Below, piece by piece: positions 11,191 to 50,190 of a DNA stretch of 64,000 bases. Under the pieces are notes generated by a model, which worked only from the letters and a program-made list of their open reading frames with translations, made no database searches and was not told where the DNA came from. Within the stretch, counting starts at the first letter, position 1. Each line of letters begins with the position of its first letter. The stretch is from positions 62,001 to 126,000 of the forward strand of contig CALDHM010000029.1 in the NCBI GenBank assembly GCA_937941455.1, read 5' to 3'. The stretch is from an uncultured Pirellulaceae bacterium (GTDB taxonomy: Bacteria; Planctomycetota; Planctomycetia; Pirellulales; Pirellulaceae). The translations under genes and the position numbers were made by a program.

Positions 11191-12296
11191 CTTGCTACTC
11201 CCCGCCATCGCGCGAATAGTTTCGGAATTCACACCGATCCAAGCTTTTGCGTCGACAATCCTCAATTCTATCTCGAAACGAAAGGTTTTCCCTTTCTTAC
11301 CGTACAGCTACTCTCGCGGATCTCGATTGGTTGCAAAAAATCTTGGCCCTTCGCCGTATATCTCCCCAAACCCCGATTGAGACGCTCCCCAAATTCACGA
11401 ATAACTCGCGGGCGTACTCGGCGATTTATTCCTCTCACTCCCCAAGGTTTCACCCACGATTTCAAGCATCAATAGCGCAGACGCTTACCGCATGGTCGGT
11501 TCTCGGTCTGGCTTCCCAACCCGTGCGGGGAGAGCTGGGGTGGAGGATTTTTAAGAAAGCCGAGTCATGTGGCTGGCACCAATAAAATCCTTTAAGAAAG
11601 CCGAGTCATGTGGCTGGCACCAATAAAATCCTAGGTGGCTGTTTCAACTGCCTGCGCAAAGATCTCGTCACTAGGCTTCGCTGAAACCGTTTCGGCGATT
11701 GGCAAGTGTGGCGTCTCCCTCGCCGGTACGTCGGGCTATTATGTCGGGCTGAGATAAGATTTCTTTCGCTGACGCTTCGGGTTACGATTGGCTTTGCTGA
11801 AACTTCATTTCATTACGAAGAGCATCGCTCGTTTGACAGTCAGCCGCAGGCGTGCTTGCCCATGCGAATATCGCCTATCTCCAAACATTTCCTCGCTTAC
11901 GCTCGGGTTACTATCTTTATGAGTTTTGGGCTAGGCGTTGCAATTGTGCCGTACGGCTTGGGGTATACAACCAGCGCTGCGTGGTTGTTACCGATCAACC
12001 GATCGAAAAATCCGGTATCGCGCGTACGCCTGCGGCTAGCGGTTAAACGAGCTGGCACCGGACGACCAGGATTCGAAGTGCTCGAACCGTCTTGGTTGAC
12101 AAGTTCTAGCTACCGCCGATGAACGAATAAAATCAGTAGTTGAAGGCATTAAGGATGAAAAGGCACTATCCAATTTTTTGGCAAAAACGCTAGGTTTCGC
12201 AAGGAAATAGAGCGTTGTGTAGGGGCAAGCCTGTCGATCATTTTGCTCGATTGGGAAACGTGCAGATTTCGGACTGTTACCGTACGAGTCACGAAG
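11191..12296. other. Repeat-bearing intergenic region
   Basis: About 1.1 kb without a credible gene. It holds a tandem 41-base direct repeat (11551-11632) and several fragments resembling the dispersed planctomycete words found elsewhere in the window, such as GACGCTTCGGGTTACG near 11774 and GCGGCTAGCGGTTAAAC near 12032. Short frames on both strands have no domain similarity. The region is upstream of a gene on its left and downstream of one on its right, so it may carry a promoter for the 9355-11190 gene. Confidence 0.6.
11551..11632. repeat. Tandem direct repeat, 2 x 41 bases
   Basis: Two identical 41-base units, 11551-11591 and 11592-11632, sit head to tail. Each begins TTAAGAAAGCCGAGTCATGT and ends in CACCAATAAAATCCT. 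Within a unit AGCC and GGCT flank the GAGTCATGT core and could form a short stem. No open frame uses it. Confidence 0.95.
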
Positions 12297-23944: not shown

Positions 23945-24288
23945 GACCAACTCTCTACAGAACGTAAAAGATTGTTTGTTCGGACAGCTTATTACACGTC
24001 AACGATGATGGTTCGGCGGGATTGCCGAATTATCGGCTATTTTTTCGAGAATTTACGCCAGAAACTACCCCAAATGCGCCCTCGCCTACGCTTCGGGCTT
24101 CATGTAGGACCGGCCTGAAGTCGGACTACAGCCCAAACACGCCCCCACTTACGCCTCGCGCTGCGGCTGATATTTTTTCCAAAATCTGATTTTTGATACA
24201 AGGACTAAAAAATCGACGAATGACTTTCGCTTGTCGTCGCCCTCTCTGGTCCTGATTTGTCCCCAATGCCAATGGCTTGCCTTTAATT
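23945..24288. other. Intergenic gap with repeat fragments
   Basis: 344 bases without a gene. 24078-24170 contains CTCGCCTACGCTTCGGGCTTC and a diverged second piece (ACTTACGCCTCGCGCTGCGG), both related to the core of the family B repeat at 50013-50083. No other feature seen. Confidence 0.5.
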
Positions 24289-30639: not shown

Positions 30640-30894
30640 CACACGGCCCGGTCGTGTCGCATCCCGGCAGCATCGGCTGTTTTGATTTTTGGGTGAATCG
30701 CCCTGCCCGACGATTTCATTCGTGATGGAATTTCAGCATCGAACATCCATGCCAGTGGAAACATCGTCGTCATCTCGCCGCGGGCGACGGTCGCGGCCTT
30801 CATTATCGGGTGCCATCCGTGCTAAGTTTCGCCTCCACCCTCTCGCCGCCCGCTCTTAGTTCGCGGCGTCCGTCATCTCGCGTTATCGTTACCA

Positions 30895-30965
30895 AGGGCC
30901 TATCCCAAAACCTGACCTTGCTAACGCTTCGGGTTACGGGTGCTGCGGTTGTTGGGAGCGGCTCT
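30895..30965. repeat. Dispersed inverted-repeat element, family B copy
   Basis: Left arm AGGGCCTATCCCAAAACC (30895-30912), core with CTAACGCTTCGGGTTACGG, right arm GGTTGTTGGGAGCGGCTCT (30947-30965). The layout equals the copy at 50013-50083, but here the right arm has diverged. Confidence 0.8.
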
Positions 30966-31290
30966 TAGTTTCGGATCCACCCTCCCGCCGCGGACTGGAG
31001 GGTCGCGGCGCAGCCGCGAAGTGAGCGGGGAGGGGGGGAGGGGGGGGCAAGAATTGGGAATTATAAGTTTAGAAAGCACTCACTCTCTGGCCCTACGGGT
31101 CGACGCTCCCCGAGGTAGAGTTAAAAACATATCTCGTTTCGGCCACGCGGGCCGGCTCCCAAAAGTTAAACGCTTGCCGTTGCTCTCGCATCGCGAGCAA
31201 GCGGGAAACGCCTACGATGCCCGCATGGCCCACCACCGTTCCTTCCATTAAAATCAGAGGCGTTACGCAACGAACTTAACGAGGTACAAC

Positions 31291-37109: not shown

Positions 37110-37255
37110 ACTTGAGAGCCAAACTCTGAACTCGCTTCCCCCGATCTAATTTTTCGCCTATTGAAAGCTTGGCCCGAAACCGTCCGTGACCCTAGCCCGC
37201 AGCGTAAGCAATTGACCGTCTGGGGATAGCCTGAACGAAATTCGGATTGCCGATG

Positions 37256-38550
37256 TCACACGCTCAAGCCATCTCGTCCGACCAAGTGCCTAGCCCAAAA
37301 CACAACTTCGGCCGCCCTAACCCAAAGCGAGGCCCCGCAGCCCGAAGCGTAAGCGAGGGCACGACTCAGGATAGGCTTCAAGGAAATTGATGCGGGTCCG
37401 TGCAAAATCCACCCGACTGGCATGTAGCGGACAACTACGAGATAGCTCGCGAACGAGAATAGCCAAGTCACACCCACCACAATGGCCAACTTGATCCACA
37501 GCGAAACCTCCCAAGGAATGAGTAGGGTTTGTACAAAAATGACGATAGGCAAATGAATCACGTAGATCCAATACGACGAGTCGGCAGTCATCCGCAGCCA
37601 ACCCAACGAACGTGACAGAAATCATCTTCCAACTGACAACGTCAGGATCGTCGACGCTACCGTAAGATTGGCAGTCAAGACGAACTCCATGAGGTAATGC
37701 CTGCGATCGATCGACTCGGACTCACCGAGCAAGACGCACACGTCAAAATTTGGGAGGTAGACGTAGTCGGGAATGAATAACAGAAAACTCGCACCGATAA
37801 GGGGCGCCACATCCACGCCTGCCATCGATCGAGTTCTGCCTCTTGCCCGTGAGTCTGCCACCCGAACCAGAAAAACCATCCATAAAACCAAATCGACCAC
37901 CACGCGGGAATGAAGGACTCTCGGGCCGCCACCGGAACGCCACCTCCCATCACCGCGGGAACTAAGCCCAATGGCCAGAGCACAAACCATGGCGAGCAGC
38001 GAAACAACCGATTCATCCGCATCGGAACAACCCGGTAAAAGACCACGGCCATCGCGGTGAACATCGCCAAGTAATACAAAAACCACAAGTGCATCGCGCT
38101 CCACGATTGCCTTCGGCTCGCATTCGGCGTATTTTGTCCCACCTCGACAATCAACCCGAGCAACCCGGCTCGCACATCGATATACGAAATGACGAAGACG
38201 ATGACCACGGTCATGAGCACCAAAAGTAGCGGGTAAAACAACACGAAGGGAAGGACAATCCGGATGGCTCGGCTGCGCAAAAAGCCGAATTCGCCGCGTT
38301 GGCCGATCAGCAATTTCGAAAAATAGCCAGCCAGCTAGAAAAACAGGTTCATACGAAACAAGTGAAGCCACAAGATTCAAAGGTCAACTGCGCGGCTCCC
38401 TTGACCGTTCGTCGCTAACAATATCGACCGCGCGGGCTCCGCATTAGCCATCGCGCTATGCAGATAAACGGCCAACCACATCGCCAGGGCACGCAGATTG
38501 TCTAGATAATGGATCCGATGCTCGACTCGTCGCAAATTCGTAGTGTTCAA
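37256..38550 (-). pseudogene. Acyltransferase-3 family membrane protein, decayed
   Basis: The minus strand carries a broken acyltransferase-3 (OpgC/OatA-like) gene. Joined by hand, it reads HYLDNLRALAMWLAVYLHSA at the N-terminus, LHLFRMNLFF-(stop)-LAGYFSKLL, IGQRGEFGFLRSRAIRIVLP, HLWFLYYLAMFTAM and finally SSYWIYVIHLPIVIF. Stops interrupt it at 38377-38379 (TGA), 38335-38337 (TAG) and 37622-37624 (TGA), and the frame shifts near 37800. Three stops and one shift rule out a working protein. A family B repeat (37285-37379) forms its 3' end. Such proteins normally acylate surface sugars. N-terminus starts around a TTG at 38550. Confidence 0.9.
37285..37379. repeat. Dispersed inverted-repeat element, family B copy (reverse)
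   Basis: AGTGCCTAGCCCAAAAC at the left, GCAGCCCGAAGCGTAAGCGA in the core (reverse complement of the family core) and CAGGATAGGCTT at the right. It overlaps the 3' end of the acyltransferase pseudogene and supplies its last reading-frame codons. Confidence 0.75.
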
Positions 38551-49759: not shown

Positions 49760-50190
49760 ACTTCGCTCATTTTCGAATGGATACACCCGTAGGTATTTTA
49801 GGTCCCGAGGCGATTTCTCTCAATCGGCAGGAGAATTTCGAATTTGTCGCAATGGTTCGCGGGCAACTGGTCAAACGCCAAGCCGCGGCCTAAAGTGTTC
49901 GTAGCTTCAGAGTGAATCTGGCTCGTCAACGTCTCGCTTTCTGGCTCTAGGGCAGAGCAGCGGGGAGCGAAATCGTCGTGAGACGGCGGGTTATGCTCAA
50001 ATGAAACAACCAAGAGCCTATCCCAAAACCAGTCCTCGCCTACGCTTCGGGCTACGGTTGCTGTCGGTTTTGGGATAGGCTCTATGCCAGGAACTGCGGT
50101 GGCCGGTACTGCAGCCAACGTTGAAGGATTTCCCTCTGAATCGTTTCGATCGTTGTCGACTTTTACATAGTGATTTCGGACGTTTTAGTT
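49760..50190. other. Intergenic gap between divergent genes, with family B element
   Basis: 431 bases between purF and the aminotransferase, read away from each other. It contains the best-preserved family B inverted repeat (50013-50083). Promoters for both genes should lie here; none can be placed with confidence. Confidence 0.5.
50013..50083. repeat. Family B element with 18-base perfect inverted repeat
   Basis: Left arm AGAGCCTATCCCAAAACC (50013-50030) and right arm GGTTTTGGGATAGGCTCT (50066-50083) are exact reverse complements, enclosing 35 bases with CGCCTACGCTTCGGGCTACG in the middle. No T-tract follows, so it is not a classical terminator. Related copies are at 30895-30965 and 37285-37379, and core fragments near 24078. 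Confidence 0.95.

Follow-up and report, generated by a model that had tools for sequence, protein, structure and literature searches.

The closest described system is BrickBuilt of Porphyromonas gingivalis (PMC4596501), a MITE whose ends are of the IS5 family and whose interior is a repeat, a 23-nt minisatellite, and not an IS remnant. A review places BrickBuilt between genes, describes MITEs in general as normally intergenic and likens truncated ones to REPs (PMC10969869). REP and REPIN sequences (PMC3733652, PMC3116915) resemble the present core in being short, mostly intergenic repeated units, and in relatives the core also occurs in inverted pairs. The REP survey of 2013 treats Planctomycetes in general terms and reports many tyrosine-transposase repeats in R. 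baltica (PMC3733652).

The window analyzed here is a stretch of 64,000 nt (G000:C29:62001-126000) in a genome of 4.04 Mb and 77 contigs. It holds a palindromic unit that we read, with a probability of about 0.9, as a non-autonomous IS5-family MITE, that is, a REP-like unit enclosed by IS5-type ends, mobilized by an IS5-type transposase and spread within the lineage. Like BrickBuilt, it is mostly intergenic and its interior is a repeat. BrickBuilt differs in having 19 copies, irregular duplications and a tandem repeat inside (PMC4596501). The present MITE numbers about 150 copies, has TNA as its duplication and encloses a REP-like unit that recurs across an order. A second comparison is with IS5-family IS (NCBIfam NF033580, transpos_IS5_3), such as L088, L061 and L057 (the last from a Pirellulaceae MAG), whose terminal repeats agree with those of the MITE at 14-16/17. 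As a group, these IS have the same CTNAG target and TNA duplication. They differ in being about 0.9 kb long with a DDE transposase, while the MITE is geneless and its interior is unrelated to theirs.

Neither the MITE nor its core was found by description in the open literature, searched by listings and running text. As far as that literature reached, a lineage-specific IS5-type MITE that is new as a family is well supported, and it belongs to a known kind of mobile DNA. The REP-like passenger inside IS5-type ends is mildly surprising. It joins two separate classes of small repeat. One is a transposon shell whose enzyme family, target and duplication are defined, the other a REP-like unit, and their union offers a testable route for REP-like sequences to multiply with no RAYT involved. 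The analysis also brings out an order-wide planctomycete repeat that, by description, was not found in the same running text.

The element and its copies

Perfect arms of 18 nt at 50013-50030 and 50066-50083, 100% complementary to each other, enclose a spacer of 35 nt that includes CTACGCTTCGGGCTACG. This agrees with the preliminary description, which had claimed an 18-base perfect inverted repeat around a 35-base center. The MITE proper has the ends GAGCCTATCCCAAAACC...GGTTTTGGGATAGGCTC and a total length of 69 nt, into which, with arms of 17-18 nt, a gene cannot fit. Its neighbors in the window are presumably a PurF-like gene and an aminotransferase gene. The features of the window are as follows.

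50014..50082, + strand: intact 69-nt MITE, the top-scoring copy of the genome, with flanks CAA and TAT
50014..50030, + strand: 5' terminal inverted repeat GAGCCTATCCCAAAACC, IS5-type end
50034..50056, + strand: REP-like core CCTCGCCTACGCTTCGGGCTACG, of a kind also present outside the MITE in many genomes of the order
50066..50082, - strand: 3' terminal inverted repeat, exact complement of the 5' arm
30896..30964, + strand: second MITE copy, with a decayed right arm followed by TTAG as right flank
37287..37377, - strand: third MITE copy, in reverse orientation, its interior longer through additional core-like sequence
11873..11936, + strand: fourth MITE copy, decayed (30.0 bits)
37166..37230, - strand: fifth MITE copy, strongly decayed (24.3 bits)
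24062..24101, + strand: core and left-arm remnant, left half only (22.3 bits)
24132..24172, + strand: weak core-like stretch adjoining the preceding fragment
11766..11790, + strand: lone core, a REP-like singlet

By the profile described below, the window thus holds five copies plus core fragments at 24062, 24132 and 11766. The related element reported earlier at 30895-30965 is real, with a profile match at 30898-30965 (+) of 53.8 bits (E 7.7e-16). So is the reversed one, given before as 37285-37379. Its profile match covers 37316-37377 (-) at 33.5 bits, the second arm at 37287-37303 is weak alone (6 bits), and the longer span agrees with the internal lengthening. A core fragment placed near 24078 proves to be the left half at 24062-24101. 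The two decayed copies, at 11873-11936 and 37166-37230, and the lone core at 11766-11790 were absent from that account. A 47-nt direct repeat (74%), at 30822-30868 and 30964-31010, flanks the copy at 30896, and its second unit starts at the right end of that copy.

The preliminary description had suggested a REP/MITE-like mobile unit. It had proposed counting the copies genome-wide and looking for target-site duplications and for a transposase with matching ends, and had held that fewer than a handful of copies, or copies only at terminator positions with T-tracts, would speak against the idea. We counted with a 71-position, sequence-only profile built from 29 copies (L025 was left out of 30). 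Scoring 150 of 1,701 first-look candidates, so that weaker copies may be missing, gave at least 154 matches in the 4.04-Mb genome, with about 150 places among the matches listed; a few of these are halves of one split element or read a single element in the opposite direction. The copies are therefore many times a handful. BLAST with the element gave at least 74 matches (40 of 112 candidates scored), 40 of them long and the remainder single arms. The arm GAGCCTATCCCAAAA, with at most one mismatch, matches the genome 71 times and its reversed letters not once, so the repeat is not a product of chance. Mean pairwise identity of the copies is 72%.

Copies are rare in open reading frames. By a crude measure, a MITE lies inside an ORF of at least 110 codons in 3 of 31 loci, whereas positions drawn at random from these loci do so at 81%; two of the three ORF-internal loci were inspected and the MITE is apparently between genes there. 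One copy, at 1501-1571 of L004 (G000:C52:12512-12579), lies between csb2 (type I-G CRISPR, TIGR02165) and a stretch coding for a CARF protein (TIGR02710).

The MITE appears confined to its own genome. Among 98 genomes of the order, searched with the profile under strict filters and with 51 candidates scored per genome, the other 97, four of them congeneric, gave no match at E <= 1e-6. A mean identity of 72% is hard to square with absence from four congeners, unless amplification happened long ago in species that lie far apart. At the one site examined in a genome of the same genus (G001), both neighboring genes are conserved, with a protein identity of 81% for the one after the element and 87% for the one before. 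Between them no core is present (best 9/17), and there is one arm-like stretch of 12/17, a likeness that 28 of 1000 shuffles reach. This spacer lacks the MITE but aligns too poorly to serve as a clean empty site.

Target site and matching IS ends

Flanks were read at 111 loci of the own genome, mostly top scores first, with the weakest copies and the window's other copies excluded. One locus (L274) could not be aligned, and of the 110 that could, 22 were set aside for an arm below 12/17, leaving 88 two-armed copies. The element runs GAGCC...GGCTC and is exactly 69 nt long in 68 of the 88. Its target is RCTNAGY with duplication of TNA, so that an inserted copy reads RCTNA, element, TNAGY. TNA is found on the left in 40/88 copies and on the right in 45/88, compared with 1-6 at offsets of 3-11 nt. 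The base at -4 is C in 46/88, and that at +4 is G in 50/88. In 15/88 copies the two flanking triplets are identical, which happens in 0-3 copies when other offsets are read and in 6.8 on average after shuffling (p = 0.0015). Both flanks carry TNA in 22/88 copies, and in 11 of those the triplets are the same (6.4 expected, p = 0.02); the other 66/88 copies lack it on at least one side. In the 39 best-armed copies alone, identical triplets number 7 versus 3.8 expected, which is not significant (p = 0.07). The duplication sought at the outset is thus found in the 88 copies taken as a set but not at the copy at 50014-50082, where the flanks CAA and TAT mean that a clean target duplication is absent.

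Duplications of TNA are made by the IS5 subgroups ISL2 and IS1031. The own genome has nine places with a DDE_Tnp_1 domain (E <= 0.01). A sequence close to the MITE end is present at just one of them, L032 (about 0.94 kb, G000:C37). Five of the nine loci (L034, L035, L037, L038 and L039) end at contig edges, so ends could be missed there. One end of L032, GAGCCTATCCGAAAACC, matches the MITE end at 16/17, with G at the position where the MITE has C. The other, GGTTTTCGGATAGatat, matches at 12/17, and 13 bases, CTATCCGAAAACC, are common to both. The transposase pieces of L032 match DUF4096 and DDE_Tnp_1 and lie in one frame split by stops; the C-terminal piece scores 112.6 against a cut-off of 110 with an NCBIfam IS5-family model. 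L032 shares with the MITE its ends only, not its interior. Because it is single and decayed, carries the C/G difference, has a second end of 12/17 and an interior unlike that of the MITE, the exact parent was not found. A tblastn search of plasmids with the L032 transposase piece matched 863 records, 860 of them below 60% identity and 3 at 60-80%.

Related IS loci were collected by scanning contigs with an alignment of the L032 piece and three relatives, and the best 80 of 400 were taken. L054 and L122 are apparently one locus and were treated as a single observation. Both sides were readable in 73 of the 80; seven lacked one side. Ends matching the MITE end at 13/17 or better on both sides were present in 29 of the 73, compared with 1 for a reversed control and 0 for a rotated control. 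At 12/17 or better the figures were 46, 11 and 0, respectively. The nearest ends are those of L088 (from a Rhodopirellula MAG, GGGCCTATCCCAAAACC), L061 (from a Rubripirellula MAG), L064 and L065. Complete flanks were available for 28 of the 29 end-matched IS, whose median length is 914 nt. In these, TNA is the left triplet of 26 and the right triplet of 26, and the two agree in 18; position -4 is C in 24 and position +4 is G in 15. The ends, target and duplication of the MITE are thus, judged by sequence, those of an IS5-family lineage.

IS with matching ends, the decayed L032 elsewhere in the genome among them, are therefore on record alongside the copy number, the terminal repeats and the TNA duplication. 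Together these four lines of evidence identify the unit as a MITE, and the MITE half of the first guess stands on the same grounds.

The REP-like interior

The MITE encloses a REP-like unit, CCTCGCTTACGCTTCGGG..., which is common in the order outside such ends. Of 60 genomes searched in the order, the own one included, 35 have at least one match (at most one mismatch) to its core, TCGCTTACGCTTCGGG; a reversed control has 1-4 matches in 17 of the 60. Ten or more matches are seen in 20 genomes for the core versus none for the control. The counts are 82 in the own genome, 587 in G051 and 537 in G012. In the relatives, the REP-like repeat CCTCGCTTACGCTTCGGGTTA (L137-L166) forms inverted pairs, singlets and tandem arrays, the tandem cores being spaced 33 bp apart in G051:C15 and 32 bp apart in G051:C63.

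We read 29 loci of relatives, the first listed place per genome. An inverted core pair within about 60 nt is present in 12 of them. Of the 50 cores in these loci, one only, in L145 (G039), adjoins an arm-like stretch of 12/17 or better. This core lies on the - strand near 1500, between arm-like stretches of 12/17 and 11/17, and is perhaps a decayed element of similar build. By eye, a second motif, GCAACTTCAAAA, recurs near core pairs in L138, L155 and L164, and may mark the border of a larger repeat unit.

A by-eye comparison of the lists places 13 of the own genome's 82 cores outside the listed profile matches, two of them in the window. The other 11 were fetched with one more place. Among these 12, L287 and L292 keep one arm (13-14/17), and L285, L288 and L290 have an arm likeness of 11/17 on both sides and may be decayed MITE copies. 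L295 and L296 are short tandem series of the core; the remaining fetched cores have no clear arms. In the 68 copies of exactly 69 nt, conservation is 0.86 for the core and 0.85 and 0.84 for the arms, and this equality gives no sign of a function that would retain the core within the MITE.

Competing explanations and the origin of the unit

A first rival account takes the palindrome for an intrinsic terminator or for an RNA hairpin conserved at the ends of genes. The consensus does fold into a long hairpin (about -41 kcal/mol), and its placement is intergenic as such a role would have it. A run of four T within 14 nt, however, is found in 3/88 copies on one side and 5/88 on the other, and control windows have one at 5.8%, so that T-tracts are at background, not a property of the copies as the early sketch had allowed. 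Nor is the orientation of the neighbors that of terminators, for among 28 MITE sites with a neighbor on each side, 20 lie between tandem genes, 5 between divergent and 3 between convergent ones. The arms show no covariation. In the 68 copies, 300 arm changes are one-sided and 32 two-sided, with 28.7 two-sided expected if the arms change independently, and 12 of the 32 still pair; the 29-copy alignment contains no two-sided change that preserves pairing. Rfam returned no family at the gathering threshold in the window. Mostly intergenic copies, independent decay of the arms and background T-tracts argue against terminators and conserved hairpins alike, and given also the few convergent sites we reject this account and leave it next to no weight.

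Mobility by another enzyme is the subject of a second account, in which the whole unit is a REP or REPIN moved by a RAYT (Y1) transposase and the arms are just part of a long palindrome. The REP-like core and its inverted pairs in 12/29 loci of relatives speak for it, as does the presence of Y1 transposases in all 12 relatives searched and at one RAYT-like place in the own genome (L040, G000:C22:3841-4188, E <= 0.01, with one internal stop). But the unit is bounded by IS5-type ends with a TNA duplication, and HUH enzymes are not known to make TNA duplications. The core, moreover, is not near the own Y1 gene, and it lies near only 2 of 30 RAYT loci from 12 core-bearing genomes, as a pair in L184 and as a single in L190. 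The unit also differs from REPs and REPINs in that its REP-like part is a passenger inside IS5 ends and in that the GTAG tag is inconstant: by eye, the place at one end of the core where a REP would have GTAG or CGTC reads GTAG or GTAA in many own copies and is variable in relatives. From the REP half of the initial suggestion, then, the REP-like and order-wide character of the interior survives. For the whole unit, a RAYT-driven REP is rejected on the TNA duplication and the IS5 end match, and we regard it as very improbable. About equally improbable is a third account, that the MITE is purely an internal-deletion derivative of an IS5 element whose likeness to the core is due to chance or to ancestry within the IS. 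MITEs are commonly thought to arise from IS by internal deletion, and this usual presumed origin is what recommends it. The core, however, is common in the order without these ends, and among the 80 related IS loci it occurs at 14/17 or better in L133 only (14/17), and at that level in neither L032 nor L054. No IS with MITE-like ends holding the core beside a transposase gene was seen in those 80. Plain internal deletion of the genome's own IS, L032, is rejected because the interior is not in common.

Under the reading as an IS5-family MITE, the IS5-type transposase would have recognized a short segment made up of two IS ends flanking a REP-like unit. This segment would have been cut out or copied and then inserted at CTNAG sites. 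The family may have spread in the lineage of this species after its split from the sampled relatives, the autonomous IS decaying later, and the copies would now drift neutrally, mostly in intergenic DNA. We infer capture from three observations: the core is common in the order without the ends, it is nearly absent from related IS, and the MITE profile matches the own genome only. On this comparison of sequences, an IS5-type MITE appears to have captured a pre-existing, order-wide repeat and to have spread it in this species.

A broader proposal, which we hold to be possible but rather doubtful, is that planctomycete IS5-type ends are an exchangeable shell that repeatedly captures REP-like palindromes, with a DDE transposase spreading REPs in place of a RAYT. 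If true, a foreign transposase could seed a REP population at new loci, and host factors or RAYTs would act later. Three further elements of the own genome have similar IS5-type ends and a different palindromic interior.

L297 (G000 C17), 1501-1574 of the locus: element of the CCCCAGCCCT...GGGGAGAAGGGC type
L298 (G000 C1), about 1495-1573 of the locus: element of the CCCCAGCCCT...GGGGAGAAGGGC type
L300 (G000 C11), 1501-1560 of the locus: partial element of the CCCCAGCCCT...GGGGAGAAGGGC type

With a second interior found between ends of one kind, the shell looks exchangeable. Sorted by their palindromic interiors, which are unrelated to each other, the shells of the own genome fall into about 150 with the order-wide core and three, one of them partial, of the second type.
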